A stretch of DNA of 35,479 nucleotides from assembly GCA_005223075.1 (NCBI GenBank), contig NJBO01000019.1, positions 1 through 35,479 of the forward strand, given 5' to 3'. Positions 8,313 through 24,180 of the stretch are shown in pieces; the stretch's first letter is position 1; the number at the start of each line of letters is the position of its first letter. The translations under genes were made by a program, and so were the position numbers. The notes under the pieces were generated by a model. It was not told the DNA's origin. It saw nothing but the letters and a program-made list of their open reading frames with translations, and did not search any database. The stretch is from a candidate division TA06 bacterium B3_TA06. Lineage in GTDB: Bacteria; Hydrothermota; Tepidihabitantia; B3-TA06.

Positions 8313-9175
8313 ACGCCCTCCTCGCCCTCCTCCCATTTTTTGCGACCACGCATGAGCCGGATCTTACGAATATAGAACGACTTGCCGACAGCCTCTACGC
8401 TTACGGCTCCTTCGACGCGGCAGCGCTGGAATATAAACGGTTATTATACTTTTCACCCCACGCCGTTGCTTCGCAACGCCGCGGGGACCCCGAATCTTTT
8501 GAGATCATAGACACTCACTTTGTGAATATAAAGCTGGCTCTTGCTTTATATCGAAATAATGAAAAGAACGAGGCCGACGCCATCCTCTACTCGCTCGAAG
8601 GCCCGATGGTGCGGATGGTTCGAGCGGTTCTCCTGATCGAGGAAGGCAACCCCTACCTTGCAGCAAGGGCGGTGGATTCGGCAACCTGTGCGGTATTCGG
8701 CGCATCAGCCTACCGTCTTCGCGGCTGGGCGTATCTTGAGGCAAAGGAGTTTACCAGATCGGCATCCGAGTTCCGCAAGGCGGGCGAGGATTCTCTTGCA
8801 ATGCTGGTGGAGGATCTGAAAAATCTCAGGCTCAAGAATCCCAGGACCGCCCGACTCCTATCCATACTTCCCGGTCTGGGCGAGGCCTACGCGGGAAGGC
8901 CCTTATTTGGTCTCTGGGCTCTTGCGGTCAACGCGGGGGATACGTACCTTATAATCAACGCCATCCTCAAGCAGCGCTATGTGGACGCCTTGCTGGTCTA
9001 CACATTTCTCTGGCAGCGCTTCTATGCAGGCTCGATGGCCAACGCCGACCGCTTCGCAAGGGATTGGAACGAAAGAACTTATAAGAAAACCCTCGACCCC
9101 ATCCGCGAGCGTTACGGTGAGCGCGAGGCGCTAAGACTCGATCTTGCGGCGCTTAAAAATCTGCAAACCCCTTAG
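8309..9175 (+). CDS. TPR-containing membrane protein carrying an in-frame palindromic element
   Basis: A 288-residue protein, GTG start at 8309 overlapping the previous stop as GTGA. It has TPR-like helices (SLYAYGSFDAAALEYKRL, YLEAKEFTRSASEFRKAGED) and then LSILPGLGEAYAGRPLFGL with a membrane segment, matching the preceding protein in plan. Codons 49-62 (SPHAVASQRRGDPE) are encoded by a 42-bp palindromic repeat inserted exactly in frame between the first TPR helix pair and the following text. Without these residues the protein would align better with its neighbour. Last gene of the yidD operon; function unknown. Confidence 0.75.
   Translation: MNALLALLPFFATTHEPDLTNIERLADSLYAYGSFDAAALEYKRLLYFSPHAVASQRRGDPESFEIIDTHFVNIKLALALYRNNEKNEADAILYSLEGPMVRMVRAVLLIEEGNPYLAARAVDSATCAVFGASAYRLRGWAYLEAKEFTRSASEFRKAGEDSLAMLVEDLKNLRLKNPRTARLLSILPGLGEAYAGRPLFGLWALAVNAGDTYLIINAILKQRYVDALLVYTFLWQRFYAGSMANADRFARDWNERTYKKTLDPIRERYGEREALRLDLAALKNLQTP
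8453..8494 (+). repeat. 42-bp palindromic element, in-frame copy A
   Basis: Begins TCACCCCACG, has the stem-loop CGTTGCTTCGCAACG at its centre and ends CGGGGACCCCGAA. It occupies 14 whole codons of gene 8309. Other copies: 11601-11642, 19095-19136, 22541-22582, and a longer one at 19921-19983. Confidence 0.85.
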
Positions 9176-9220
9176 AATTTAAATCCGCCCCGGTCAGATT
9201 TGAGTGCCGTTCGGCACAAA

Positions 9221-9320
9221 AAAAGCTGGTCAAAAGCTACCCAAAAGCTGGACAAAAGATGGTCAAAAGATGGACAAAAGTGGGTCATTTGAGGGTGATT
9301 TCTGGTGATTTTGGGTGAAT
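9221..9320 (+). repeat. 11-bp tandem repeat with phased A-tracts
   Basis: Six units of 11 bp beginning AAAAG (AAAAGCTGGTC, AAAAGCTACCC, AAAAGCTGGAC, AAAAGATGGTC, AAAAGATGGAC, AAAAGTGGGTC), then three or four degenerate units of 10-11 bp beginning ATTT and ending GGTG. A-tracts repeated about once per helical turn should bend the DNA. Confidence 0.8.
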
Positions 9321-9389
9321 TTTGCACTTTGAACCGAAGGATTGCGTTTGCTGAATAATTTGAATTAATTTGATAGCTACCACTTTCCC

Positions 9390-9925
9390 CGCCCCCTTAC
9401 CCCCTCCACCGAGGAGGGGGAACATTGCATTTGCAAAGCCCTTGGGTTATCCCCCTCCCTTTTGTTCCCTGCCCGACACTAGACGGTAGTGCAGGCGGGG
9501 GCACTTGTCTCGCCGTCCGAGACGCTGTCCCGCAAGGGGAGGGATATTGGTTGATGCAGGCGCTTGTTGCACTCCAAACCGTACCCCTCCCTTGACGGGA
9601 GGGGATTAAAGGGGAGGGTGAACACCCCCACCCTACCCTCCCCCGTCGAGGGGGAGGTGATCAAAGGAATCCCCCTTTGTTCCCCCTTTATAAGGGGAGT
9701 GGCCCCAGATCGGGGGGATTACCGCTTTCCCCTCCCTCCGGCACTTCGTGCCGACCCCCTCCACCAGGGAGGGGGAATTATGGTTGGTGTGCCCCCTGCA
9801 TCCACCTCTTCCTTGACGGCGTAGGCACTACCGTCTAGTGGGGAGGATTGAGGTGGGGGTGATTTTATATGCTTTACACCCTCCCCCTACCAGCTTGGGG
9901 CTGTCCCGTCAAGGGAGGGGTATTC
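9390..9925. repeat. Gene-free island of C/G-rich stem-loops
   Basis: No credible gene. At least five hairpins of the plan CCCCTCCC-loop-GGGAGGGG occur: 9400-9420, 9584-9604, 9637-9657, about 9685-9699, and 9730-9775, which has an inner CGGCAC-ttc-GTGCCG. A 16-bp sequence CACTAGACGGTAGTGC at 9477-9492 returns inverted at 9825-9840, bracketing about 330 bp like short terminal inverted repeats. Frames here are only by-products of the repeats. Confidence 0.7.
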
Positions 9926-9970
9926 TTTCCCAGAGATGTACTTCACCTAATATCAAGCGGAAGCTTTACC

Positions 9971-10131
9971 GTCGTTGCGAGCGACCGGAGCGAGCGAAGC
10001 TCCGAAGGGCGAACGAAGGGAGCAATCTCAAAGCACAGTCCTGAAATTGCCATCCGCTTTCCTCACAGATACATCTTACTGCCATGAGATTGCTTCGTCG
10101 TAACGCTTCTAGCGTTACTCCTCGCAACGAC
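9971..10131. repeat. 161-bp MITE-like inverted-repeat element
   Basis: The ends are GTCGTTGCGAG (9971-9981) and its inverse CTCGCAACGAC (10121-10131). A second inverted pair lies inside: AGCAATCTCA (10021-10030) and TGAGATTGCT (10085-10094). A perfect TAACGCT-tct-AGCGTTA hairpin sits at 10101-10117. There is no coding capacity. It resembles non-autonomous palindromic elements. Confidence 0.65.
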
Positions 10132-10141
10132 AGTTAAAGGA

Positions 10142-11470
10142 CTATTGCCCTTCCTGCCTCTGCTCGGCCAGATTGCGTTTGGCACGTGCAATGTTTTGGT
10201 CGGCCTTTTCGATTTCAAGCTTTGCCCCAATCTTTACAAAAATCTCACGCGCACGCTGAAGATAGTCAAGAGCTTGTTTGTGGTCTCCCAAGTCGCCGTA
10301 GACGTTCCCGATGTTGCCGAGGTCTGCGGCCTGACCTTCGAGTCTGCCTATCTTCTCGTCTATCTCGAGCGCCTTCTCGTGATACTCAAGCGCCTTGCGA
10401 GGCTCGCCTAAGGTGCGGTAGACAATCCCGATGTTGCCGAGTTGATTGGCTTGCACTTCAGGGTTTCCTATCCTCTTTGCTATCTCTAACGACTTCTGAT
10501 AATACCCAAGCGCCTTGCGCGGCTCGCCAAGGGTTTGGTAGACAAGCCCGATGTTGCCGAGGATACTGGCCTGAGTTTTTAAATTGTCTACCTGTTCCGC
10601 TATCTTCAGCGCCTTCTCGTGATACCCAAGCGCCTTGTGCGGCTCGTCTAAATCATCGTAAACATTCCCGATGTTCCCGAGGTCTTGAGCCTGACCTTCA
10701 AGTCTGCCAATCTTCTCATCTATCTTTAGCGCCCGCTCATGATACTCAAGCGCCTTCTGAGGCTCGCCCAAGGTTTGGTAGACGATCCCGATGTTGCCGA
10801 GGTCTTTAGCTTTCCCTTCGAGATCGCCGATCTTTTCGTGTACCTTCAAAATCTGCTCGTAATACTCAAGCGCCTTCTTTGGTTCGCCTAAGGTGCGGTA
10901 GACAAGCCCGATGTTGCCGAGGTCTTGAGCCTGGCCTTCGAGGCTGCCTATCCTCTCGTCTATCTCGAGAGCCTTCTGGTGATACTCAAGCGCCTTGTGC
11001 GGCTCGCCAAGGGTTTGGTAGACAAGGCCGATGTTGCCGAGGGCGGCGGCAAGGGGTTCGTCAAGTTTGGCTTGCTTTGCGATTTCAATCATCTCAAGGA
11101 AGGTCTTTTCCGCATCGCGTGTTGCCCCCATAGTTTTTTGGCTTAAACCAATCAAGTTGAGTATGGCGCAGCGCTCGCTGGCGTCGGTAGCTTGGCCGAG
11201 CAGGAGTTTGAATTTCATTATGGCGGTTTCGTGCTTATATTTTTTTCGCGCCTTGAGTGCTTCATTAAGAAGAATATTCTTTTCTCTTGGAAGCAGTTTA
11301 GTAAGTCCGTTGAGATAAGGTGATGGTTCACCCGGCGCTTTTTTCGTTAATAGCCGCCTGTTCCGTATCCACTTGCGGAGAGCGAATACTTTATCTAAGA
11401 TAAACCATGTAGCCGTTATCAAAGTCAGTGCGGACGCAACAATAGCTACAGTGGTCCAGAAAGGACTCAC
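10142..11470 (-). CDS. Membrane-anchored TPR-array protein
   Basis: About 442 residues. One membrane helix near the N-terminus (VAIVASALTLITATWFIL) is followed by basic residues, which suggests a cytoplasmic repeat domain. From about residue 140 there are seven near-identical 40-residue TPR units (pattern LGNIGLVYQTLGEP.KALEYH.KALEIDEKIG.LEGQAQD), preceded by one diverged unit, of the kinesin-light-chain/TPR_12 type. The units are also close at DNA level (120-bp period). Such arrays bind protein partners. The start is uncertain: GTG at 11468-11470 with GGGAG upstream is preferred; the frame extends to a TTG at 11480-11482. No partner gene is adjacent. Confidence 0.85.
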   Translation of the reverse strand: MSPFWTTVAIVASALTLITATWFILDKVFALRKWIRNRRLLTKKAPGEPSPYLNGLTKLLPREKNILLNEALKARKKYKHETAIMKFKLLLGQATDASERCAILNLIGLSQKTMGATRDAEKTFLEMIEIAKQAKLDEPLAAALGNIGLVYQTLGEPHKALEYHQKALEIDERIGSLEGQAQDLGNIGLVYRTLGEPKKALEYYEQILKVHEKIGDLEGKAKDLGNIGIVYQTLGEPQKALEYHERALKIDEKIGRLEGQAQDLGNIGNVYDDLDEPHKALGYHEKALKIAEQVDNLKTQASILGNIGLVYQTLGEPRKALGYYQKSLEIAKRIGNPEVQANQLGNIGIVYRTLGEPRKALEYHEKALEIDEKIGRLEGQAADLGNIGNVYGDLGDHKQALDYLQRAREIFVKIGAKLEIEKADQNIARAKRNLAEQRQEGQ

Positions 11471-11494
11471 AACCACTCCCAAAACATGGTTTAA

Positions 11495-11522
11495 ATCATA
11501 CCTTTTAACGGTAGCTTGTCAA
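11495..11522 (-). promoter_or_regulatory. Promoter of the TPR gene
   Basis: On the minus strand, TTGACA (11517-11522), 16-bp spacer, TATGAT (11495-11500). An ATG 7 nt downstream (11485-11487) opens a 6-codon frame whose TGA overlaps the GTG proposed for the TPR gene. Confidence 0.7.
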
Positions 11523-11537
11523 GGATACAAGCCCATT

Positions 11538-11558
11538 GAGCGGGCTAAGAGCCCGCTC
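11538..11558. repeat. Perfect 9-bp stem-loop
   Basis: GAGCGGGCT-aag-AGCCCGCTC, between the TPR gene promoter and the 42-bp element. No T-run. Confidence 0.55.
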
Positions 11559-11600
11559 TACACTTGCCCAGAAAAACTCGATAGTTTTGTTGGAGTGCTC

Positions 11601-11642
11601 TTCGGGGTCCCCGCGAAATTGTGAAGCAATTTCGTGGGGTGA
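11601..11642 (-). repeat. 42-bp palindromic element, copy B
   Basis: Reverse orientation. On the minus strand it reads TCACCCCACGAAATTG, loop, CAATTTCGCGGGGACCCCGAA. Intergenic, ending 6 bp before the rnfC -35 box. Confidence 0.85.
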
Positions 11643-11648
11643 GCAAAG

Positions 11649-11676
11649 TTGACAAAATATCCCGTAGGGCTATAAT
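11649..11676 (+). promoter_or_regulatory. Promoter of rnfCDG
   Basis: TTGACA (11649-11654), 16-bp spacer, TATAAT (11671-11676). A leader of about 40 nt follows, with AAGGAGC before the ATG at 11724. Confidence 0.85.
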
Positions 11677-11723
11677 CACCGGACTTTTATCGCGTCGCGC
11701 AAGCTAGCAAGGAGCAGCCGATC

Positions 11724-13070
11724 ATGATTACCTTTCGCGGTGGAATCCACCCGCCTGAGTTCAAAGAGTTAGCCGAAGAAAAACCAATCGAGACCATGCC
11801 GCCGCCCAAGCAGGTGGTTATACCACTCTCCCAGCACACCGGAGCGCCTGCAAAGCCTGTGGTGGCTGTAGGGGACGAGGTCAAAGCAGGCACCCTTATC
11901 GCCGAACCGGTGGGGATGATCTCTGCTGCAGTTCACTCATCTATAGCCGGAAAGGTGAAGGGTATCGAGCACTGGGTGCATCCGGTGTTGCCTGTGCCGA
12001 CAAAGGCTGTAATCATCGAGGCGGGCGAGACCGATGAGCTTGACCCTGCAATCAAACCTAGAACCCAGGCCCAGATCGAGAAGCTTTCGCCTGAGGAGAT
12101 ACGCGAGATAGTCCGCGATGCAGGCATTGTGGGACTTGGAGGTGCGGCATTCCCCACGTCGGTCAAGATCACCCCGCCCGAGGACGCAGCAATCGACACC
12201 CTCATCATCAACGGTGCGGAGTGCGAGCCGTTTCTGACAGCCGACGACCGGCTGATGCGTGAGAAGCCGGAGGGGATCATCAATGGAGCAAGGATTCTTG
12301 CCAAGGTGCTTGGACTTGAGGGAGCCTGTATCGCCATCGAGCACAACAAGCCGGAGGCTATCCGCATCGTGTCCGAGGCCGCGTCAAAGGTCTGGCCTGC
12401 GGCAGAGGTCTTAACTGTAAGAACCAAGTACCCGCAGGGCGCGGAGAAGCAGCTTATATCCGCGATCCTGGGGCGCGAGGTTCCAGCCGGCGGGCTGCCC
12501 TTCATGGTCGGCGTGGTTGTCCAGAACGCGGGCACGGCCTTTGCGGTTTATGAGGCGGTGGCAAAGCGCAAGCCTCTGTATGAGCGCGTGGTTACGGTCA
12601 CCGGACCGGGGATCGCTGAACCTAAGAATCTCCTTGTTCGCATCGGCACACTCGCGGCGGACGTGATCTCTCACTGCGGCGGGCTGCGGCCTGATGCAAC
12701 AAAGTTCATCTCAGGCGGGCCGATGATGGGCATCGCTCAGTCCAGCCTCGAGGTTCCCATTATTAAGGGAACATCAGGCATGCTCTTTTTGGATGGCTCC
12801 AGGAGTCTTTTTAAGGTCTCCGAAGAGGTCAACTGCCTGCGCTGCGGCCACTGCGTGGGCATCTGCCCGATGAAGCTTGTGCCTGCCGAGATTGCCCGGA
12901 TGGCAGAGTACGAAAAGCTGGAAGAGGCCGAGCGCTGGGGGATAGCGGACTGCATGGAGTGCGGTTCATGTGCATTCGTTTGCCCGTCCGGACGCCGACT
13001 GGTGCAGTGGATCAAGTACGGCAAGACACTTATCTTCGCCGAACGCAGCCGCAAAAAGGAGCGCAAATGA
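11724..13070 (+). CDS. rnfC: Rnf electron transport complex subunit C
   Basis: A 448-residue protein. RnfC takes part in electron transfer between reduced ferredoxin and NAD in the ion-pumping Rnf complex at the inner membrane. Visible features are the N-terminal FRGGIHPPE segment, the NADH/FMN-binding region with GLGGAAFPTSVK and INGAECEPFLTADDRL, the KYPQGAEKQL and GGLPFMVGVVVQN segments of the Rossmann/SLBB part, and two 4Fe-4S motifs: Cys371/374/377/381 (CLRCGHCVGICP) and Cys410/413/416/420 (CMECGSCAFVCP). The two clusters separate it from NqrA. First gene of a three-gene operon with its own strong promoter; 72 bp separate it from rnfD. Confidence 0.96.
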   Translation: MITFRGGIHPPEFKELAEEKPIETMPPPKQVVIPLSQHTGAPAKPVVAVGDEVKAGTLIAEPVGMISAAVHSSIAGKVKGIEHWVHPVLPVPTKAVIIEAGETDELDPAIKPRTQAQIEKLSPEEIREIVRDAGIVGLGGAAFPTSVKITPPEDAAIDTLIINGAECEPFLTADDRLMREKPEGIINGARILAKVLGLEGACIAIEHNKPEAIRIVSEAASKVWPAAEVLTVRTKYPQGAEKQLISAILGREVPAGGLPFMVGVVVQNAGTAFAVYEAVAKRKPLYERVVTVTGPGIAEPKNLLVRIGTLAADVISHCGGLRPDATKFISGGPMMGIAQSSLEVPIIKGTSGMLFLDGSRSLFKVSEEVNCLRCGHCVGICPMKLVPAEIARMAEYEKLEEAERWGIADCMECGSCAFVCPSGRRLVQWIKYGKTLIFAERSRKKERK

Positions 13071-13142
13071 CCCGCCCCGTAACACACCAGCCTCCTTCCC
13101 TACCCCCTATCGAGATTCTTGCGGGATCCGAAAGGAGACTAG

Positions 13143-14195
13143 ATGAATTCTGAGGTCAAGGATACTCGAAAGTTTCTGGTCACCCCTTCCCCGCATCTCA
13201 AGGCGCCGTTCAACGTAAAGATGGTCATGTACATCGTGGTTATTGCCCTGCTGCCGGCTCTTGGCGGCGCTATCCACTTCTTCGGATTCTACTCCCTCTG
13301 GCTGGTTTTGGTCTCTGTCGCCACCGCGGTGCTTGCCGAGTTCCTTGCAAACCTTGCATTCAAGCGGCCGCTTGAAACGTGTCTTGACGGCTCGGCAATA
13401 ATTACCGGGATGCTTTTGGCCTATAACCTGCCGCCTACCGCGCCCTTGTGGATGCCTGTGGTGGGCTCGGCGTTCGCGATCATTATCGTGAAAGCCTTGT
13501 TCGGCGGCCTGGGTCACAACTTCCTTAACCCTGCCCTTGCCGGCCGCGCGTTCCTCATGGCGTCCTGGCCTGGCAAGATGACCTCGGGCTGGATATTGAG
13601 GGAGGGATTAGGGACTACCTCCGGCATCCAGGTAGACGTCTTCTCAGGGGCCACTCCGCTGGGAGTTGTCCAGAAGCTCAAAGACATCAGCGATTCCGCC
13701 CTCGCCGAAACCACCAAGTCGGCACTCAACGACCCCTCGATGCTCAAGAGCCTTTTCTTCGGAAACGTGGGCGGGGTGCTTGGCGAGACCTCGGTGCTCT
13801 TACTCCTTATCCCGGCGATAATACTGATTGCTATCCGGGTAATAGACTGGCGCATCCCGCTTGCCTACCTCGGCACCGTGGCTTTGGGGACGCTCATCGC
13901 ATGGCTGTTTAAGGCGACTCCGGTCACACCTATCTTTCATCTTTTATCCGGCGGGCTCATGCTTGGCGCCCTGTTCATGGCAACGGATTACGCCACCACA
14001 CCTGTGACTCCTTTGGGGCTTTGGATATTCGGCATAGGGTGCGGGGTATTGACAGTGCTCATCCGATTGTGGGGAGGCTATCCTGAGGGGGTAAGCTACT
14101 CGATCCTTTTAATGAACGTTGTAACACCCTTTATCGACCGCTACACCAGGCCGCGCATCCTTGGTGAGAGTGCGGCAAAGAAGGAGCGAAAATGA
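13143..14195 (+). CDS. rnfD: Rnf electron transport complex subunit D
   Basis: A 350-residue multi-spanning membrane protein. It starts with the typical LVTPSPHLKAP and has hydrophobic helices throughout (MYIVVIALLPALGG, LWLVLVSVATAVLAEF, VLLLLIPAIILIAI). RnfD carries covalently bound FMN on a Thr in an SGAT motif, here FSGATPLG with Thr171. GGLGHNFLNPALAGRAF is also characteristic. ATG at 13143 follows AAAGGAG. Its stop overlaps the start of rnfG (ATGA). The predicted role is electron transfer across the membrane within the Rnf complex. Confidence 0.95.
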   Translation: MNSEVKDTRKFLVTPSPHLKAPFNVKMVMYIVVIALLPALGGAIHFFGFYSLWLVLVSVATAVLAEFLANLAFKRPLETCLDGSAIITGMLLAYNLPPTAPLWMPVVGSAFAIIIVKALFGGLGHNFLNPALAGRAFLMASWPGKMTSGWILREGLGTTSGIQVDVFSGATPLGVVQKLKDISDSALAETTKSALNDPSMLKSLFFGNVGGVLGETSVLLLLIPAIILIAIRVIDWRIPLAYLGTVALGTLIAWLFKATPVTPIFHLLSGGLMLGALFMATDYATTPVTPLGLWIFGIGCGVLTVLIRLWGGYPEGVSYSILLMNVVTPFIDRYTRPRILGESAAKKERK

Positions 14196-15097
14196 GGCTT
14201 GAGGTCAAGATGGTTCTTGTACTTATGGGGGTGGCGCTTGGCTCCGCCGGTCTGTTGGGATTGGTGTTCGGTGTTACCGCGCCGGTGATCGTAGCCCAGA
14301 AGGAAGCCGCCCGCCAGGATGCTCTGGCCATGCTTTTACCAGAGGCTGAACGTTTCGAGCCTGACACCTTGATATCCGACGGCGACACCAGCATCATCTA
14401 TCACGCCTACGATGAGAAGGAGACAAAGGTGGGCATCGTCTTTACCGTTGCGCCTAAGGGCTACGCCGGGCCGATAGAGACCATGGTCGGTCTGCATGTG
14501 GACTCAACTGTATCCGCCATCCGCATCGCCTCTGCGGCTGAAGGTCTCAAGGAAACACCTGGCCTTGGCGCTCGCGTGCTGGAGGATACGTTCCGCAACC
14601 AGTTCAAGGGCCTTAAACATGACGATCTCTATCTTGCCAAGGAGGGCGGCAAGATAGATGCGATAACAGCGGCAACCGTTTCCTCCAACGCGATTACCTC
14701 AGGGGTTCGCCAAGGCGTGGAGCGCTACATCTGCTACCTCGTGGAAGGAGCGGTGGGGGAAGCAGAGCCCTCGCCTTCGGTCACCGATTCCCTGCCTGGC
14801 AAAACCTCCAAAAAATCTGAACTTACCGAACGAATCTTGACTGCATCCGGCTACGTGGGAGAGTTCAAGGTAATCGTAAGGCTTGATGAGAAGGGCAAGA
14901 TCGCCGAGATCGAGATACCCAAGGAGGATTTTGAGGAAACCTTCGGGATCGGCTCGCTCTGCCGCGAGAAAGAGTTCCTTGAGCGGTTTGTAGGCCTTGC
15001 AAGCGCTGCGGAGGTCAAAGCAGTAGACGCCGTCTCCGGCGCAACCGTTACCTCCGAGGCTGTCAAAGACGCAGTGGCAAAGGTCTTCGCTCCTTAA
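14192..15097 (+). CDS. rnfG: Rnf complex subunit G with a second FMN-binding domain
   Basis: A 301-residue protein, about half as long again as a typical RnfG. Residues 1-30 form the membrane anchor (MVLVLMGVALGSAGLLGLV). The first FMN-binding domain (about 60-190) ends with TAATVSS at 159-165, where the usual SGAT/TGAT has Ala for Gly. A linker (about 195-215, Pro/Ser/Lys-rich) leads to a second FMN-binding-like domain with the canonical SGATVT at 282-287, Thr285 or Thr287 being the likely flavin site. It is either a duplication or a fusion with a small FMN-binding domain protein. Last gene of the operon; rnfE, rnfA and rnfB do not follow. Confidence 0.9.
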   Translation: MRLEVKMVLVLMGVALGSAGLLGLVFGVTAPVIVAQKEAARQDALAMLLPEAERFEPDTLISDGDTSIIYHAYDEKETKVGIVFTVAPKGYAGPIETMVGLHVDSTVSAIRIASAAEGLKETPGLGARVLEDTFRNQFKGLKHDDLYLAKEGGKIDAITAATVSSNAITSGVRQGVERYICYLVEGAVGEAEPSPSVTDSLPGKTSKKSELTERILTASGYVGEFKVIVRLDEKGKIAEIEIPKEDFEETFGIGSLCREKEFLERFVGLASAAEVKAVDAVSGATVTSEAVKDAVAKVFAP

Positions 15098-15232
15098 TCT
15101 GGATCAAACACAACCTGTCTCAGAGATCAGCCTGAACTTCATTGTAAGTGGTTGCGATCTTAAAGCAAGAGAAAATTCGCCACCACCAGCCCGCAGGCTG
15201 CAAGAACCCCTAATATCGCAAGTCAGTGACGA

Positions 15233-16243: not shown

Positions 16244-16263
16244 CGAAACCTCCTTGATTGGAT

Positions 16264-16291
16264 AGTCTAGGTGAACCGCAAGGGATGTCAA
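16264..16291 (-). promoter_or_regulatory. Promoter of the propeller gene
   Basis: On the minus strand, TTGACA (16286-16291), 16-bp spacer, TAGACT (16264-16269). Confidence 0.7.
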
Positions 16292-16294
16292 TAG

Positions 16295-16322
16295 TTGACA
16301 CGGGGCAAAGTTTGGTTATCTT
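16295..16322 (+). promoter_or_regulatory. Promoter of the protease gene
   Basis: TTGACA (16295-16300), 16-bp spacer, TATCTT (16317-16322). Its -35 is only 3 bp from the -35 of the divergent promoter, forming the palindrome TGTCAA-tag-TTGACA. Confidence 0.7.
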
Positions 16323-16343
16323 TAGGTAAATTTAAGGAGGCTT

Positions 16344-18191
16344 ATGCGTTTTTCAAGTTTTGTTAAGTTTGTTAGCGTGGGAGCTTTCCTGTGGGCTGTT
16401 TGTGCCCTAGCCCAGACCTATAGGGTGGATCAGATACTTTCAAAACACATGAAGGCGATGGGCGGCTCTGCGGTAATCTCTCATCTGGCCTCAGTGGTGC
16501 GCGAGGCGCGCGTGGAGGCCGGTGGACTGAAAGGCACATCCACCACCTGGATACTTCCGCCGAACCGGACCCGCAACCGCATAAAGATGGGGGTGCTCGA
16601 TCAGACCTCGTGTTTTGACGGGGAGTATCAGTGGACGATAGACGCCAACGGTGTGCTTTCGATCGGGGATGAGGAGGCTCGTAAAGCCGGACTTACCGAG
16701 GCACTCATTGACGGCCTGAGCTACATGTTCCCCGACTCGACCCTGAGGGTGCGCTACCTTGGCCGCGAGGGTGAGTTGGGCCGCAGCTTCCTCGTGCTCC
16801 AGATGCTGCCGCAAGACGGGGTTCCTGCAAAGCTCTGGATAGACGAGCAGACCTGGCTTCTGGCCAAAACCGAACTTACCTCAGGCGGACTCACCACTAT
16901 CCGGGAATACTCAGACTACTCTGAGGTCGAAGGGCTTATGGTTCCGCACCGCATTCGCATGCAGATCCCCCAGATGCAGCAGGGGTTCGATTTTTTTGTT
17001 CACACCGTGAAGGTCAACGGGTATGTTGACGAGCGGCTTTTCTTGCGCAAGGAGCGGCCTGTCCACGGCTACGTTATAGCCGCAGGCAAGAAGACAGCCC
17101 CGATCGGCTTTGAGTTCTTAAACGACCACATCTACCTCAAGGGCTTTATAAATGGAGAAGGTCCCTTTGATTTCCTTCTGGACTCGGGTGCCGGTGCTTC
17201 AGTGATCGATGAGGGTCTTGCAAAAAGGCTTCACCTTGCACCGGCCGGTGAGTTCAAAGCAACCGGCGTGTGGGGCTTTGCCGGCATGTCGTTGGTGCAG
17301 GTTGACTCGATAAACCTCGAAGGGCTTGGGCTTTACGGTCAGGTCATCGTGGCGATGGGCCCCTCTGAACTCCTGACACGATACGCAGGTCTGCCCGTTG
17401 CTCTGATCCTCGGCTACGATTGTCTTTCCCGGTTCGCAACCGAGATCCGCTTCTCCGACGCTACCGTGACCTTCCACGAGGCTGAAGGATTCGCCGCACC
17501 TGCGGGCTACAGCTTCCTTTCCTGTTCATTCGGCTCCCGTGTTCCTGTTTTGCAAGCAAGCGTTGAGGATGTAAGGGGTCGGTTCATACTTGATACCGGT
17601 TCAGGATCGTCTATCGATTGCTCTGAACCTTTTATCAAACGCACGGGCCTCAAAAAGGGACGCAGACTCTTCGAATCGGAACTCCACGGTTTCGGCGGCC
17701 CGGTTAAAATCCTGGTGGGCCGGGTCAAACACGTCTCAATAGGCCCTTATTTGATGGAAGATGCTTTGGTTGGCTTTGCCGAGGATGCCCGGTCAGGGGT
17801 GCTTTCCTCCGAGGAATACGACGGCATCATAGGCAACGAGGTGCTGCGTCGCTTCGACCTCATCTTTGACTACGCAGGCGAGCGTGTGGCCATAAAGCCC
17901 AACCCCTCGTTTGAAGAGCCCTTCCGCACCGCAAAGAGCGGGATGATACTTGAGCTCTCCGAGGACGGTCGGATAATCGTCACCCGCAGCGTTCCTTACA
18001 CACCCGCTGATGAGGCCCAGATAGAGCCTGGCTCGGAGCTCCTGGAGGTTGATGGATTCAAGGCGCGCGAGCTTGGCCTTGGCGGTATCCGCGAGATAAT
18101 GCGTGGCCCAGACGGCACCGAGGTCCAGATCAAGCTGCTTTATAATAACGAAGTTCGGGCAGCGACCCTTAAGCTGCGAACCTACTACTGA
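16344..18191 (+). CDS. Exported double retropepsin-like aspartyl protease with PDZ domain
   Basis: A 615-residue protein. A signal peptide (about 1-24, ending ALAQ) is followed by a LolA/outer-membrane-lipoprotein-sorting-like domain (about 25-220: ILSKHMKAMGG, SVVREARVEAGG, WILPPNRTRNRIK). Then come two retropepsin-type domains with catalytic Asp280 (LLDSGAGASVID) and Asp417 (LDTGSGSSID), each followed later by an ILGYD- or IIGNE-type strand. Two half-domains in one chain can form a complete active site. A PDZ domain ends the protein (about 540-610: GMILELSEDGR, VPYTPADEAQIEPGSELLEVDG). It acts outside the cytoplasm, probably in envelope protein processing; substrates unknown. Start fixed by AAGGAGG. 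Confidence 0.85.
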   Translation: MRFSSFVKFVSVGAFLWAVCALAQTYRVDQILSKHMKAMGGSAVISHLASVVREARVEAGGLKGTSTTWILPPNRTRNRIKMGVLDQTSCFDGEYQWTIDANGVLSIGDEEARKAGLTEALIDGLSYMFPDSTLRVRYLGREGELGRSFLVLQMLPQDGVPAKLWIDEQTWLLAKTELTSGGLTTIREYSDYSEVEGLMVPHRIRMQIPQMQQGFDFFVHTVKVNGYVDERLFLRKERPVHGYVIAAGKKTAPIGFEFLNDHIYLKGFINGEGPFDFLLDSGAGASVIDEGLAKRLHLAPAGEFKATGVWGFAGMSLVQVDSINLEGLGLYGQVIVAMGPSELLTRYAGLPVALILGYDCLSRFATEIRFSDATVTFHEAEGFAAPAGYSFLSCSFGSRVPVLQASVEDVRGRFILDTGSGSSIDCSEPFIKRTGLKKGRRLFESELHGFGGPVKILVGRVKHVSIGPYLMEDALVGFAEDARSGVLSSEEYDGIIGNEVLRRFDLIFDYAGERVAIKPNPSFEEPFRTAKSGMILELSEDGRIIVTRSVPYTPADEAQIEPGSELLEVDGFKARELGLGGIREIMRGPDGTEVQIKLLYNNEVRAATLKLRTYY

Positions 18192-18241
18192 TGAAAGTTG
18201 AAAGTAAGGAGGTCATGAAAATCCTCCCGATGCACTGAGGA

Positions 18242-18270
18242 TTGACATAGGCCCTTAATCCGCCTAGAAT
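18242..18270 (+). promoter_or_regulatory. Promoter of the chaN-like gene, leaderless
   Basis: TTGACA (18242-18247), 17-bp spacer, TAGAAT (18265-18270). The GTG at 18276 starts 6 nt after the -10. No Shine-Dalgarno sequence can fit in between. Confidence 0.75.
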
Positions 18271-18275
18271 AATTC

Positions 18276-19145
18276 GTGATCGTTCTGCTGTCGCTTTTAT
18301 TCCTGCAGCCCTCTTTGCCTGAGGACATAACCATCATCTCCGCAACTGGAGATACCCTGTTCTTTAACGAGCTTGCCGATGCGCTCATGGACTACAACGT
18401 AATCTTCGTTGGCGAGCGGCACGACGCAAAAGCCGCACATGAAGCGGAGCTTGCAATCCTTACCGCCCTTGCCGGGAGAGACTCAAACCTGGTGCTTGCA
18501 CTTGAGATGTTTGAAGCCGACGTAGAAGAGGTGTTGTACGCCTACCTGGTCGGAGACATCTCCGAGGATTCCTTCCTTGCGGCCTCCCGTCCCTGGCCCA
18601 ACTACCAGACAGACTACCGGCCACTCGTGGAGTTTGCCAAGGGGAATAAGATTTCTGTCGTTGCCGCCAACGTTCCGCGCCGCGCTGCAGCGGCGGTGGC
18701 GCAGGCAGGAGAGGTCTCACATGAAGTCATGGGAGTAGACAGCGTCTTTATGCCTGACACTTTTCATCTGGACTCCGAGGAATACTACGAGCGTTTTTCC
18801 GCCACCATGCAGGCGATGCCTCACGGCGGCCCCATGGGGAAGATGAACGTTGACGCTCTCTACAAGGCACAGGTTCTCAAGGACGCGGTAATGGCCGCCT
18901 CACTTGAGCCCTGGCTCGATCACCGCATACTCTTCTTCTGCGGACGCTTCCATGCAGATCACCATCTGGGTATCCCCTATCAGTTACACAAGAATCATCC
19001 TGACTTCAAGATAGCGGTGGTTGCCTTGGCCCCGGCGTCCGAGAAGCTTTCTCTTAAGGATCGCTCCGGGATAGCGGACTTCCTGTGGATATACTCACCC
19101 CAGCCGTCTGCAAAGCAGCCGGCCGGGGACCCCGAAAAGAACTGA
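18276..19145 (+). CDS. ChaN-like haem-binding/uptake family protein
   Basis: A 289-residue protein of the ChaN/DUF399 family, whose characterised member (Campylobacter ChaN) is a haem-binding lipoprotein. Family motifs: VIFVGERHDAKAAHEAE (about 45-61), LALEMFEAD, RPWPNYQTDYRPLVEFAK and FFCGRFHADHHLGIPY (about 226-241) with the conserved His residues. A short hydrophobic N-terminus (MIVLLSLLFLQPSLP) may serve for export, but there is no lipobox. GTG start at 18276, apparently leaderless. The last 16 residues contain 14 (SPQPSAKQPAGDPE) encoded by a 42-bp palindromic element, so the natural C-terminus was altered by a repeat insertion. Haem function is inferred from the family. Confidence 0.85.
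   Translation: MIVLLSLLFLQPSLPEDITIISATGDTLFFNELADALMDYNVIFVGERHDAKAAHEAELAILTALAGRDSNLVLALEMFEADVEEVLYAYLVGDISEDSFLAASRPWPNYQTDYRPLVEFAKGNKISVVAANVPRRAAAAVAQAGEVSHEVMGVDSVFMPDTFHLDSEEYYERFSATMQAMPHGGPMGKMNVDALYKAQVLKDAVMAASLEPWLDHRILFFCGRFHADHHLGIPYQLHKNHPDFKIAVVALAPASEKLSLKDRSGIADFLWIYSPQPSAKQPAGDPEKN
19095..19136 (+). repeat. 42-bp palindromic element, in-frame copy C
   Basis: TCACCCCAGCCG, loop, CGGCCGGGGACCCCGAA, exactly 42 bp. It is codons 274-287 of the chaN-like gene, in the same frame (SP...GDPE) as copy A. The gene ends two codons later. Confidence 0.85.
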
Positions 19146-19273
19146 TCGATCACCTGGAAGCTGCCCCTCCCGCGGATCCTGTGATCTCTTTACCCCCTCG
19201 AGGTAAAAGATTTGACAGATCAGCGAGCTTGTCTGTTCAAAAGTCTGTTCCAACCCGAAAGCTTGTAATTTGC

Positions 19274-19304
19274 GATCTTTCGTTGCTGTGCAACGAAAGG
19301 AGCA
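19274..19304 (-). repeat. 31-bp palindromic repeat (CTCCTTT...GATC family)
   Basis: GATCTTTCGTTGCTGTGCAA followed by CGAAAGGAGCA: a perfect stem CTTTCGTTGC/GCAACGAAAG. Near-twin of 19884-19914. Confidence 0.75.
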
Positions 19305-19313
19305 TCGTTCCCA

Positions 19314-19341
19314 TTGACACATCTAAGGTAAGGAGTATTAT
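19314..19341 (+). promoter_or_regulatory. Promoter of the CBS gene, probably leaderless
   Basis: TTGACA (19314-19319), 16-bp spacer, TATTAT (19336-19341); an overlapping TATAAT lies at 19339-19344. The ATG at 19348 is 3-6 nt downstream. The AGGAG at 19331 is too far away (about 12 nt) and inside the promoter. Confidence 0.65.
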
Positions 19342-19347
19342 AATTAC

Positions 19348-19830
19348 ATGCTGAGAGTCAAGGACTGCATGGACAAAGACCCAAAGGTGATAGCGCCCCA
19401 GGCCAGTCTGCGTGAAGCTATCGAGCTGATGCTTGCCGAGCGTGTTGACGGTCTGGCGGTGGTAGACGAGGATCGTCATTCGCTTGGTCTTATCACTTTG
19501 GGCTATCTGCTGCGTGGGTTCATGCCTGCCCACCTCAGCCACTGCCCGGAGAGGATGCTGGAGGAGCTGGAAGCGGTTAACATCCAGGCGTTCTTCGGTC
19601 CGACAAGTGGACTCTTCCTGGTGGCAGACTTCTTTAAGGACGACGTTAAGCCGGTATCGCCAGAAGATTCCCTGATGCTGGCCGCGGCCGAGATGCACCG
19701 TCAGGAGCTTTTTATGCTGCCGGTGGTCGAGGAGAACAAGCTGGCAGGCATGATCTCCCGACGCGACGTCATGCAGGCATTCTTTGACAGATCCTCCTTT
19801 TCTCCTTCGGAGAAAAGATCAGAAGAATAG
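19348..19830 (+). CDS. CBS-pair protein
   Basis: A 160-residue protein made of two CBS domains. Domain 1 is about 1-60 (VKDCMDKDPKVIAPQASLREAIELMLAE read in pieces, then GLAVVDED and GLITLGYLL). Domain 2 is about 95-147 (VKPVSPEDSLMLAAAEMHRQ, MLPVVEENKLAGMISRRDVM). An insert of about 30 residues with FFGPTSGLFLVADFF joins them. CBS pairs bind adenosine nucleotides and act as energy or ligand sensors; no catalytic domain is present, so it should act on a partner. The last 12 residues (about SSFSPSEKRSEE) are encoded by a 29-bp palindromic repeat. Confidence 0.9.
   Translation: MLRVKDCMDKDPKVIAPQASLREAIELMLAERVDGLAVVDEDRHSLGLITLGYLLRGFMPAHLSHCPERMLEELEAVNIQAFFGPTSGLFLVADFFKDDVKPVSPEDSLMLAAAEMHRQELFMLPVVEENKLAGMISRRDVMQAFFDRSSFSPSEKRSEE
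19792..19820 (+). repeat. 29-bp palindromic repeat inside the CBS gene end
   Basis: TCCTCC-TTTTCTCC-ttc-GGAGAAAA-GATC. Same plan as 30693-30721, and the inverse orientation of 19274 and 19884. It supplies part of the C-terminal tail. Confidence 0.7.
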
Positions 19831-19883
19831 ATCTCTAAGCCTGCCTCTCCATATCACTTGAGCATAAGTAGTCGGGATTTTGT

Positions 19884-19914
19884 GATCTTTTGTTGCTAGG
19901 CAACAAAAGGAGCA
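19884..19914 (-). repeat. 31-bp palindromic repeat (CTCCTTT...GATC family)
   Basis: GATCTTTTGTTGCTAGGCAA followed by CAAAAGGAGCA; stem CTTTTGTTGC/GCAACAAAAG (with a short loop). Twin of 19274-19304 and adjacent to the 42-bp-family copy at 19921. Confidence 0.75.
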
Positions 19915-19920
19915 TTTAAT

Positions 19921-19983
19921 CTCGGGGTCCCCCCGGCGTCACCTGTCCTGCCGTCCAGGATGTGAAGCAACGACGTGGGGTGA
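19921..19983 (-). repeat. Long (63-bp) member of the 42-bp element family, copy D
   Basis: On the minus strand it starts TCACCCCACGTCGTTGCTTC and ends GGGGGGACCCCGAG, with a 21-bp longer interior. It begins directly after the TAG of the HD gene (19984-19986), in that gene's reading frame. Confidence 0.75.
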
Positions 19984-20919
19984 CTAGTCTTCCCGGGGCA
20001 GGATGCGGACCGAGTCCTTCGCAATCTTCTCTACCGCATCGCTCACCTCCTCCTCACTCACTATCCCGTCGTTTAAGAGCTCCTGCAGCCGCTTCTCGTT
20101 CACCATGGTGACCTTATCCCAGAATCCCAGCCTTTCCAGCAAGGGCTTCAGCTTCGCCTGATTGATCTTGAAATGCGTGTTTATTTGCAGCCGTGCCGAT
20201 CCCTTGGTGGTGAGTATCTTATGTTCACCGCGTCGGTTCATCTCCTCTAATATCTGTTTCTTTACCTGCTCCATCTGTTTTTCAATCTCTGCACGGTCCG
20301 CGCGCAGATCAAGGTAGCGGCTGATAGCAGGCTCAAGGTCCTCAGAAAGGGCCTCGAATTCCTGCTCCGCAGGCGGTTCTAGAGGCTCGTAGCCGGAGAA
20401 GTAAAGATAAACAGCTGTCCGGGAGGCTATGAAGTCGGCGATGTGCAGGCTCCACTCCAATGGTTTCTTGGGCATGCGTAAGGGCTGCGGTCCCCAAAGC
20501 CCCTGATGGCACTCAATGGCGTTCATGATCTCGTCAAAGTAAGGGGTCTCTGATGCCAGATCCTTCAGCTGATGGCGGACGATCAGAGGGTGATCGGCTT
20601 CAGTTCGATCCTCATCCACCAGTCCGTTCTTGAATGAGTCGTGCAGGATCGTTGCAGCACGTAATACGTCAAGCTTTGCCCCGTCTATCTTGAATACCTT
20701 GGCGATCTCTGTGGCGAGATAGACTGCTCGCCTGGTATGCAGGACAAGACCGCCCTCGCCCAGGGTATCCAGAGGATGGAAGCGACCCGAGGCGGAGGCC
20801 GGCACGTGCCAGAAGTAGGAGGGCACCCGCTCAAGCGCCTTGGTCACAAACAGACGAATCGAGGGGTCCTGGATCTGTGCCAGCTCCTCGTCGAGATTAA
20901 ATTGCCGCTCTGCGTTCAT
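19984..20919 (-). CDS. HD-domain protein, putative phosphohydrolase
   Basis: A 311-residue cytoplasmic protein. The HD metal-binding pattern is present: His61 (LVLHTRRA), His93-Asp94 (ILHDSFKNG), His110 (EADHPLIVRH) and His138 (IECHQG). About residues 195-230 form a charged coiled coil (DRAEIEKQMEQVKKQIL), followed by an unassigned C-terminal region (LKPLLERLGFWDKV, EKRLQELLNDG). HD enzymes hydrolyse phosphate esters such as nucleotides; the substrate here is unknown. The ATG at 20919 lies 7 nt after a good -10 with no ribosome site, so the mRNA is probably leaderless. A 42-bp-family repeat abuts the stop codon. Confidence 0.75.
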   Translation of the reverse strand: MNAERQFNLDEELAQIQDPSIRLFVTKALERVPSYFWHVPASASGRFHPLDTLGEGGLVLHTRRAVYLATEIAKVFKIDGAKLDVLRAATILHDSFKNGLVDEDRTEADHPLIVRHQLKDLASETPYFDEIMNAIECHQGLWGPQPLRMPKKPLEWSLHIADFIASRTAVYLYFSGYEPLEPPAEQEFEALSEDLEPAISRYLDLRADRAEIEKQMEQVKKQILEEMNRRGEHKILTTKGSARLQINTHFKINQAKLKPLLERLGFWDKVTMVNEKRLQELLNDGIVSEEEVSDAVEKIAKDSVRILPRED

Positions 20920-20926
20920 AAGCTTA

Positions 20927-20954
20927 ATGTTAGGGAGGATTGGGCGTTTGTCAA
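20927..20954 (-). promoter_or_regulatory. Promoter of the HD gene, leaderless
   Basis: On the minus strand, TTGACA (20949-20954), 16-bp spacer, TAACAT (20927-20932), 7 nt, ATG. Confidence 0.65.
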
Positions 20955-20978
20955 ACCCTTGCTTCTTGTATTCAAAGA

Positions 20979-21003
20979 AAACGTGGGGCTTGACTCCACG
21001 TTT
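20979..21003 (-). terminator. Terminator of the lipoprotein gene pair
   Basis: Stem AAACGTGG (20979-20986) with CCACGTTT (20996-21003). On the minus strand the stem is followed by a T-rich tract (TTCTTTG). Confidence 0.65.
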
Positions 21004-21018
21004 AAAACTGGGATAGAT

Positions 21019-21759
21019 TTACTCCTCGATGCCGGGCCCTTTGATGAGTCTGGTTTCGCCTTCAAAAGTATAGATTGTTGTATCTTCTACTGCTGGGATT
21101 TTCATCATCATCCAAAGGGTAGTCATCACGACTCCTTCATCCCAAGCCCAGTATTGGAAGTTCTCGTATTCGTCGAAGTCCTCTACCCATTCAGGCATGA
21201 CTTCGATCTTAAGACAGTCAGTATAACCATTGGCTTCTACATCATCTTCTATGACGTTGTAATATGTTCTATGAGTATCGGCCGAATCCGCTACGGTATA
21301 AATCTCCCAGGCATCGCCTAGTTCAGGTATCGATGGGAATACAGTTCCAGTCTCCGAATCACTTATCTCATCGTAGATGTAGGCGGAATCTTGACCTACG
21401 TGCGAATAGGAAAACGCTGGCGGGCCTTCGCTAGAGATGGTTCTGATCTCCCAAACCGGCAGTGGATTGGAGCCAGTTAATTCAGTTTCCCGTATTACCT
21501 CTGATACGTAAGTAAAAGTATCCGTCCAGGAAGTATCTTCCATGGGAAAATCATCTGGATAGTCGATCTCATCGTTTGTTATTGTCTCGTAGTTCCATGT
21601 CTTGCCTTCTTCATAGGGAAAGTAGGGAGACGAACCCGCGCCCATGGGTTCAAGGATTTTACTTTCTCCTGTGTTCCTTATTCCTCCAAACTCATCCTGG
21701 CAGGCGATGAATCCTACCGCAAGGATGAGTGCGACTGCAATCAAGAGTGCTTTTTTCAT
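21019..21759 (-). CDS. Putative lipoprotein with PYxxGxxWxY motif
   Basis: A 246-residue protein. The signal peptide MKKALLIAVALILAVGFIAC ends in a lipobox-like IAC. The mature part contains YFPYEEGKTWNYETI near its start, a pattern shared with the next gene upstream (YFPYTENSEWVYDLL) and, more weakly, with the protein at 22627. Charged beta strands rich in Asp, Glu and Tyr follow. ATG is preceded by AAGGAGG. It lies 35 bp after the stop of the 21795-22454 gene and shares its transcript, which ends at a terminator at 20979-21003. No known function. Confidence 0.75.
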   Translation of the reverse strand: MKKALLIAVALILAVGFIACQDEFGGIRNTGESKILEPMGAGSSPYFPYEEGKTWNYETITNDEIDYPDDFPMEDTSWTDTFTYVSEVIRETELTGSNPLPVWEIRTISSEGPPAFSYSHVGQDSAYIYDEISDSETGTVFPSIPELGDAWEIYTVADSADTHRTYYNVIEDDVEANGYTDCLKIEVMPEWVEDFDEYENFQYWAWDEGVVMTTLWMMMKIPAVEDTTIYTFEGETRLIKGPGIEE

Positions 21760-21794
21760 AACTTGTCCTCCTTAACTTATGTATGTTTATGGCC

Positions 21795-22454
21795 CTAGTT
21801 GTAGGATTCCCTAATCGAGAATTCTAAAATGTATTCGTCCTTTTCTGTGCCGTATTCATCGACTCCCTTGAAATATGTGTAAACCATACCTACGTCACGG
21901 GCCCAGTATTCGGTAAGCTCATAATCACTCCAGTAATCGTCCATACTACATTCGATCTTCAAACACTTCCTGTAATCAAGGATTTTCTCATCATCGGCTA
22001 CGACTTCATACTTCATATACGCATACCACAAGAGATTGAAACCTTCCCATTGGTCTCCAACTTCCGGAATCGATGGTCCAACCAGGAGAGCAGTATCGTC
22101 AGTGTAATCTAGATAAAAGTATACAGAATCCGGCTCTATTCTGATAAAGAACACTGAGGTGTCCACATCTCGGTATCCATCCGTGTCCTCATAATCCAAA
22201 ATCTGATAGACTTCACAGAACTTACTCTCTTTGTATTCGATTTCGCTGATCACCTTCTTGGTCATAGTTCCACTAAGGGTATCGTATTCGTTGTCTTCAG
22301 GATACTCCGTGTCAGTGTAGGAGTACGTGGCCAATAAATCATATACCCACTCGCTGTTTTCGGTGTAAGGGAAGTAAGTGTATTCATCTATCCTGTTGCA
22401 GCCTAACCCCAGGATTAGGGTAGAGGTAATCACAGCTGGCAAGATTTTTTTCAT
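21795..22454 (-). CDS. Putative lipoprotein, paralogue of 21019-21759
   Basis: A 219-residue protein with a lipoprotein signal (MKKILPAVITSTLILGLGC, lipobox LGLGC). The mature part opens with YTYFPYTENSEWVYDL and is acidic and rich in Tyr, similar in plan and size to the downstream gene: an SIPEVGDQWE segment here corresponds to SIPELGDAWE there. Own promoter at 22480 and AGGAGG before ATG. First gene of a two-gene operon. Probably anchored in the outer or inner membrane; function unknown. Confidence 0.75.
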   Translation of the reverse strand: MKKILPAVITSTLILGLGCNRIDEYTYFPYTENSEWVYDLLATYSYTDTEYPEDNEYDTLSGTMTKKVISEIEYKESKFCEVYQILDYEDTDGYRDVDTSVFFIRIEPDSVYFYLDYTDDTALLVGPSIPEVGDQWEGFNLLWYAYMKYEVVADDEKILDYRKCLKIECSMDDYWSDYELTEYWARDVGMVYTYFKGVDEYGTEKDEYILEFSIRESYN

Positions 22455-22479
22455 ACCTTATCCTCCTCGGTTTGGGTAT

Positions 22480-22507
22480 AGTATGCATTCAAATGAGAAT
22501 TTGTCAA
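22480..22507 (-). promoter_or_regulatory. Promoter of the lipoprotein pair
   Basis: On the minus strand, TTGACA (22502-22507), 16-bp spacer, CATACT (22480-22485). Confidence 0.6.
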
Positions 22508-22540
22508 CCGGTGAGGATGTTATGAGAATCGTTTGATTTC

Positions 22541-22582
22541 TTCAGGGTCCCCACAGATTTGTTTTGCAAATCTGTGGGGCAC
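22541..22582 (-). repeat. 42-bp palindromic element, copy E
   Basis: On the minus strand it ends GTGGGGACCCTGAA and contains the stem CCCCACAGATTTG/CAAATCTGTGGGG. Intergenic, just downstream of the terminator of gene 22627. One base of the GGGGACCCCGAA end is changed. Confidence 0.75.
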
Positions 22583-23982: not shown

Positions 23983-24180
23983 AGCGATATGCAGGAGGAC
24001 GGATCAAGTGAAGACGGCTACTCCATTGAGTAGAAGGTGGAACCACCGCTGTAGACCGATGGGAAAGAACGTAAGTTGCCGCTAGGAGATAAGGAAATCC
24101 TATTTTCTAAGGACGGGAGATTATTAAGGCCCCGCACTTATGTCTTTGCGTGGACCCCGAATAAACACCCCACGTGGCTG
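23983..24180 (+). ncRNA. Candidate independent structured small RNA
   Basis: About 200 nt with no credible reading frame on either strand, preceded by a near-consensus promoter and followed by a separate promoter. Hairpins: GGTGG-aa-CCACC (about 24040) enclosed by CGGCTAC / GTAG-a-CCG, and TAGGA...TCCTA (about 24083-24103). The motif GGACGG occurs near both ends (about 23998 and 24112). The 3' part (24149-24178) contains broken ends of the 42-bp repeat (GGACCCCGAA, then CACCCCACG). No match to RNase P, tmRNA, SRP or 6S RNA signatures that I can recognise. The 3' end is a guess. Confidence 0.4.

Follow-up and report, generated by a model that had tools for sequence, protein, structure and literature searches.

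The window analysed here, a 35,479-nt stretch of contig NJBO01000019.1 from the candidate division TA06 bacterium B3_TA06 (assembly GCA_005223075.1), carries copies of a short palindromic element bounded by ACCCC repeats, which belong to a genome-wide family of about 150 copies. An earlier note, made from the window alone, had proposed a small non-autonomous palindromic family, and this proposal holds in outline. On balance, we favour reading the family as non-autonomous, mobile DNA palindromes that resemble repetitive extragenic palindromic (REP) sequences and are moved by an enzyme other than a REP-associated tyrosine transposase (RAYT), or by the replication machinery. A search of the open-access literature returned no description of an ACCCC-bounded hairpin family.

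A 37-bp hairpin unit with a favoured strand

The 2.41-Mb genome that contains the window (G000) was scanned with the pattern CCCC-N16-40-GGGGACCC, using the reversed pattern as a control. There were 169 matches (85+84) compared to 14 (3+11) for the control; a tighter gap gave 150 and 6 respectively, and GGGGACCCCGAA was found 48 times versus 0. With 30 copies as its seed, a covariance model matched all 150 of the scored candidates in this genome, as well as 134-147 sequences in each of the relatives G001, G003 and G004, 115 in G005, 72 in G006, 59 in G007 and 18 in G002; four further genomes, from the order or class, gave no match. Across 61 relatives, the pattern scan detected the repeat in 8 of 8 genomes of the host's family, which named records place in the uncultured candidate division WOR-3 (Candidatus Stahlbacteria), and essentially no copies in the 53 other genomes of the class. 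The dozens of copies with covarying stems that the earlier note suggested looking for are thus well exceeded, whether judged by pattern, covariation or covariance model.

To delimit the copied piece we compared near-identical cores at non-orthologous places (44 pairs in WOR-3 and 239 in G064, a gut Clostridia genome). These share an A plus a 36-nt core (CCCC...GGGGACCCC), with identity dropping to background immediately outside. Because similarity is lost just beyond ACCCC...ACCCC, the copied piece is 37 bp long, ACCCC...GGGGACCCC, and is made up of ACCCC, a variable 23-nt stem-loop, GGGG and a second ACCCC, giving a 5-bp direct repeat at both ends that is always ACCCC and never variable. Together, 103 copies give the consensus TTTTY-ACCCC-A-C..GC-TNC-GC..G-Y-GGGG-ACCCC-GAA, whose outer TTTTY and GAA reflect a site preference and are not part of the unit.

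That the stems differ in sequence yet stay paired, as the earlier note observed, is borne out by two measures. Among 84 distinct copies in G000, the nine variable stem positions are Watson-Crick paired in 79% of cases, compared to 38% (maximum 43%) with shuffled partners, and the covariation score of 30 copies is 0.588 versus 0.178 when shuffled and at most 0.11 when partners are slid. As to the further claim that an RNA or cruciform structure is being conserved, compensatory change alone is no proof of selection on an RNA structure, since arm copying or whole-stem exchange gives it too, and whole-stem exchange between copies is seen here.

Of the 84 copies, 58 have A·C at stem position 5-27, and as this conserved mismatch reads G·T on the strand TTCGGGGT-hairpin-GGGGTGA, that strand pairs better. 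Among the other mismatches, A·C outnumber G·T by 26:9 in G000 (p=0.006) and by 53:13 in G064 (p=7e-7), and three of the four 42-bp copies in the window are 2-6 kcal/mol more stable when folded as the TTCGGGGT strand. The triloop is TNC in 68 of the 84 copies, so that the TTCGGGGT strand carries GNA closed by a C-G pair. Exceptionally stable DNA mini-hairpins have the consensus d(C-GNA-G). The TTCGGGGT strand is probably the working strand, as DNA. The placement of copies in G000 without gene-orientation bias and the lack of a T-run behind the hairpin likewise speak more for a strand-preferring DNA element than for an RNA one. On neither strand does a T-run follow the hairpin; on one strand a T-run precedes it, which on the other is an A-run after it.

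Placement was assessed for 118 copies from our first four-genome set, using gene calls from a simple dicodon model of our own: 101 were intergenic, 8 inside genes, 5 partial and 4 at edges, a depletion from genes given that about 20% of the sequence is intergenic and 80% coding. WOR-3 copies had no preference for gap type or orientation (29 same, 25 opposite), their placement tracking intergenic length. In G064, 36 of 81 copies lay between convergent genes, compared to about 23 expected by length, and copies between divergent genes were rare. This enrichment, together with the strongly conserved structure, is consistent with a host regulatory RNA or DNA site under selection (a terminator, mRNA stabiliser or protein-binding site). 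We nevertheless hold such a site to be very improbable, as it is at odds with the WOR-3 placement, with the missing T-run, with the finding that no Rfam family reached its gathering score for the hairpin, and with the variation of presence and stem at the same locus between sister species described below. An intrinsic terminator or regulator was rejected because the hairpin is not followed by a T-run and WOR-3 copies show no bias in placement.

Occupied sites, empty sites and exchanged stems

Identity is about 93% within each of the pairs G000/G001 and G003/G004, and the two pairs differ by 15%. At four orthologous loci (S1, S3, S4 and S5) the element is present in one genome and exactly one ACCCC in another, so that the empty orthologous sites for which the earlier note proposed to look do exist in relatives. 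S1 holds two units in G000 (G000:C1:211719 and 211764) and one in G001 (G001:C67:7184), and is empty in G003 (CTATA-ACCCC-GAATAAACATCC) and G004 (CT-ACCCC-GGATAAACATCC). S3 is occupied in G000 (G000:C1:224923) and empty in both G001 (AATC-ACCCC-GAGACATG) and G003 (AAAC-ACCCC-GAGACATG); S4 is occupied in G000 (G000:C2:140666) and empty in G003 (CTTT-ACCCC-GTGTGTCG); and S5 is occupied in G001 (G001:C2:10778) and empty in L116, from the same assembly as G003 (TATC-ACCCC-TATACGG). Another locus, S2 (G001:C32:18612 versus G000:C2), is ambiguous, the region being duplicated in G000, and was excluded from the count. For S3, parsimony favours a putative gain in G000. A less precise loss is seen for the window copy at 11601, which is kept in G003 and reduced in G001 to CACCCCACGAAGAG, where a 30-bp deletion through CGAA has kept only CACCCCA-CGAAGAG. 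As a candidate footprint, ACCCCGAA was not in excess (39 solo matches compared to 41 for the reversed control in 0.70 Mb).

At five places the flanks align and the ends are kept between sister genomes while the stem is strongly different: G000:C3:55893, G000:C7:91959, window positions 19095 and 19921 (the latter versus G003), and S1. In a strict comparison of G000 to G001, 5 sites were identical, 3 nearly so, 3 stem-changed (one of them, G000:C1:272391, by an indel and five differences) and 9 without an element or degenerate, although several of these nine fall in paralogous repeats. Both presence and stem sequence can therefore differ at the same locus between sister species. Either a site was emptied and then re-occupied, or cores were converted.

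In the mobile-palindrome reading, the working form would be a single-stranded DNA hairpin of the TTCGGGGT-hairpin-GGGGTGA strand, formed at replication. Loss would join the two ACCCC repeats and remove the unit, and another copy could then take over the leftover ACCCC-GAA site, which would account for stems being swapped. Cutting and joining would be supplied by a trans-acting, non-RAYT enzyme or by the replication machinery itself. Units would be lost, and perhaps re-inserted, through their ACCCC repeats, and gain may be ongoing. A bolder version, which we think unlikely, is that the units are hairpin cassettes of a kind not described before, present in WOR-3, gut Clostridia and a few other phyla, for which ACCCC serves as a reusable docking site where a non-Y1 activity takes them out of the genome and puts them back; cassette swapping at fixed sites would explain changing stems with constant flanks.

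The main rival, and a serious one, is passive: an old family that no longer transposes and is reshaped by slippage deletion at ACCCC, 45-bp tandem duplication, arm correction and gene conversion of cores. Precise deletions at ACCCC, and microhomology deletions such as those at window position 11601 in G001 and in L091 versus L277, are typical of repeat-flanked hairpins, and in G001:C33 adjacent copies do not differ from each other at positions where those of G000 do. Comparison of G000:C3:144735 to G001:C5 (reverse) revealed a compensatory A-T to C-G change, which is expected from arm-to-arm correction of a palindrome and fits the passive account. The tandem arrays fit it as well. In both WOR-3 and Clostridia their units all point the same way at a spacing of 45 bp (spacer 9, occasionally 7, 8 or 10), and because spacers are common to units while stems often differ, units have been duplicated and their stems exchanged later. 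The title of a 1988 paper by Higgins already raises the question of whether REPs evolve by gene conversion. On the other hand, passive change leaves the origin of 100-150 dispersed sites within one genome family unexplained, requires two losses rather than one gain at S3, does not readily account for the absence from G001, G004 and G002 of the in-gene copy at 8453, and calls for conversion across 5-9 bp of conserved ends, which would be unusual. We consider it somewhat unlikely.

Several observations nevertheless weigh against mobile palindromes. Gain and loss are not polarised at S1, S4 and S5, and only weakly at S3. In some comparisons, chiefly involving dispersed repeats, about 45 bp is present or absent without a remaining ACCCC, which contradicts an 'ACCCC only' target rule and means that ACCCC is not the sole rule. 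Gene conversion could be the source of the stem swaps, and the spacers that tandem units have in common suggest that these arose by duplication and not by insertion time after time. With respect to GC skew the copies showed no strand bias, in a test that is weak as the skew is near zero, and no enzyme was found for the ACCCC-bounded element.

Copies in the window

The positions given in the earlier note for four 42-bp copies (8453-8494, +; 11601-11642, -; 19095-19136, +; 22541-22582, -) and for a 63-bp variant (19921-19983, -) are correct. Its description of the termini can be refined, since the outer TC/GAA is a site preference only and the copy at 22541 deviates, with a GCCCC start and a CCCT end that mark it as slightly decayed. 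What had been taken for broken ends at 24149-24178 is instead CGTGG-ACCCCGAATAAACACCCC-ACGTGG, a tandem-unit spacer with both outer hairpins truncated; the spacer proper, ACCCCGAATAAACACCCC, lies at 24154..24171 (+) and is of the type found in intact arrays.

The first 37-bp unit (ACCCC-stem-GGGG-ACCCC; 8455..8491, +) lies inside the open reading frame (ORF) 8309-9175, where together with TC/GAA it supplies 14 in-frame codons, SPHAVASQRRGDPE, as residues 49-62; at this point the orthologues in G001, G004 and G002, which have no copy, are shorter by 10 residues. The second (11604..11640, -), whose core is the same as that of copies at G000:C16 and G001:C7, lies between the divergent genes 10142-11482 (-) and 11724-13070 (+). 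The third (19097..19133, +) replaces the C-terminus of a ChaN-like protein (ORF 18276-19145, ending ...FLWIYSPQPSAKQPAGDPEKN*), which ends ...IYTPHDVTE*, with a different stem, in G001, G003 and G004, and ...IYQ*, with no element, in G002. Right after the stop codon of ORF 19984-20919 (-) stands the 63-bp variant (19924..19981, -; GGGGT...GGGGT on the + strand), whose hairpin carries an insertion; this variant is also present in G001 and G004, whereas G003 has an ordinary 42-bp copy with another stem. The last unit (37 nt, GCCCC...ACCCT; 22544..22580, -) has a stem that is perfect over 13 bp and is located between ORFs 21795-22454 (-) and 22627-23277 (-). Among in-gene copies generally, those on the same strand as the gene are all in frame 0, and most read SPH...RGDPE or similar.

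Other repeats accompany the element. Dispersed intergenic repeats of 60-120 bp, with many matches in relatives, occur in the window at about 9194-9316, 9582-9660, 9721-9778 and 9962-10034, and regions of such repeats commonly contain an 11-bp tandem repeat, TTTTGWCCANC, that often adjoins the hairpin element. A third dispersed hairpin, ATGCTCCTTTT-loop-AAAAGATCGCA, is often found beside the 42-bp element (examples are L070, downstream of the Y1 gene, G000:C2:134800 and G001:C5:104400).

Candidate mobilisers, other phyla and known systems

A profile search identified four Y1 (PF01797) genes in G000. On the flanks of the RAYT-like genes examined in G000 and G001 lies another palindrome, mostly GTAG-tagged (GTAGGGGCCGACCTTTAGGTCGGCCC type), with further copies scattered through these genomes, and the 37-bp element is not at the borders of their Y1/RAYT genes, in agreement with the earlier note that no transposase is linked. 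RAYT genes whose flanking palindromes are mostly GTAG-tagged (L069, L070, L071 and L073, in G000:C16, C2, C3 and G001:C32) constitute a canonical REPtron in WOR-3. Since the RAYT flanks hold the GTAG palindrome and Y1-free genomes are rich in the element, a canonical REPtron and an orphan element thus coexist in one genome. No Y1 match was found in G004 (about 126-145 copies) and, among 16 other carriers searched, none in G063, G064 (170 copies), G065 (19), G067, G068, G069 (15) or G070 (53). Separately, in L079 (G005:C47) and L080 (G006:C7) a restriction/methyltransferase-like gene contains an in-frame Y1 domain with DKGFKPLV-type repeats, also in frame, at its borders.

These data bear on the possibility that the element is a REP moved in trans by resident Y1/RAYT transposases through IS200/IS605-like peel-and-paste. 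The four PF01797 genes of G000 would provide the enzyme, REPs resemble IS200/IS605 subterminal hairpins (PMC6006769), and this chemistry would suit the size of the hairpin, its strand asymmetry and the way in which loss restores a short target. Set against this are the other palindrome at RAYT borders, the several copy-rich carriers without a Y1 match, the lack of a GT[AG]G foot and the finding that most relatives with Y1 genes are without the element. We consider this route improbable, and rejected a resident RAYT as a simple mobiliser because its flanks hold another palindrome and several carriers are Y1-free.

A strict pattern run over about 85,000 species genomes returned 57 stretches, compared to about 1 expected by chance according to our estimate. 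Most are from WOR-3/Stahlbacteria, and the remainder include gut Clostridia, Oscillospiraceae and one each from Frankiaceae, Acidimicrobiaceae, Cloacimonadota and a Thermoflexus assembly. In the 1.7 Mb of G064 there are 170 copies, which agree with those of WOR-3 in length, spacing, A·C position and TNC loop; this genome is alone in exceeding two matches among 398 Bacillota genomes. The distribution over phyla is patchy and would fit common descent, transfer or convergence. Viral contigs yielded seven pattern matches, approximately the number we estimate by chance. One 134-kb viral contig, IMGVR_UViG_3300035696_000011 (L244-L247, L242), is rich in a cousin hairpin (CACCCCANCGACGTGGACCTGTCGNTGGGGACCCCG) that shares the ends of the element but differs in its loop: 80 kb hold 35 copies, many of them inside predicted genes, and no Y1 gene was found on the contig. 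Two of these copies lie within a 596-aa DNA methyltransferase ORF (L242:10137-11927), which seems to hold a long internal insertion, as its best family match covers only 225 profile positions.

REPs are thought to need a RAYT. With two palindrome families in one genome, one flanking RAYTs and one not, the spread of an orphan palindrome becomes directly testable, and the exact unit, its footprints and its stem exchanges are all visible among sister species. The same architecture in distant phyla, including the Y1-free gut Clostridia genome with 170 copies, suggests a missing general mechanism.

Rickettsia palindromic elements (RPEs) share with the element in-frame copies within genes (here ORF 8309-9175 and the end of 18276-19145), though their usual size is about three times that of the 37-bp unit. 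In-gene copies are exceptional here (8 inside and 5 partial, versus 101 intergenic), and an RPE-like coding element was rejected as only a minor fraction of copies are in genes. IS200/IS605 excision precisely restores a short target. The ends of these elements are likewise short subterminal hairpins with one active strand (PMC6006769), but for our element no transposase was found, there is a single hairpin rather than two ends, and a 5' guide would require the GGGG on the other side of the hairpin. The mobile GC clusters of yeast mitochondria are also GC-rich palindromes of about 42 bp that are shuffled and merged by an unknown mechanism (PMC4478555). They belong to another genome and have a putative AG target duplication where ours is ACCCC, and we found no evidence of common descent. 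Classical miniature inverted-repeat elements (MITEs) of DDE transposons are recognised by the terminal inverted repeats of a known IS and by a target-site duplication that varies; on the second point, the 5-bp repeat flanking our unit is always ACCCC.

CGTC REPs, which include Rickettsia RPE-4/6 and Neisseria dRS3, are also short palindromes without a dedicated transposase and patchy over phyla, but have a CGTC (or TGTC/CCTC) end, an 8-9 bp stem and a 4-5 nt loop (PMC3733652), whereas the element has no CGTC end, a 13-14 bp stem, another loop and a head-to-tail rather than head-head arrangement. With GTAG REPs and their RAYT transposases (REPtrons) it shares size, intergenic dispersal, high copy number, an imperfect hairpin with G-T pairs and stems that vary while keeping their pairing. 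Unlike them, it has no GTAG/GTGG foot on either strand (the 103-copy consensus ends in YACCCC / GGGGACCCCGAA only), does not flank RAYT genes, is bounded by ACCCC direct repeats and forms head-to-tail tandem units, head-tail dimers being rare in REPs (PMC3733652). Given the other palindrome at the RAYT genes and the copy-rich genomes without Y1, the element is REP-like, yet neither a GTAG nor a CGTC REP.

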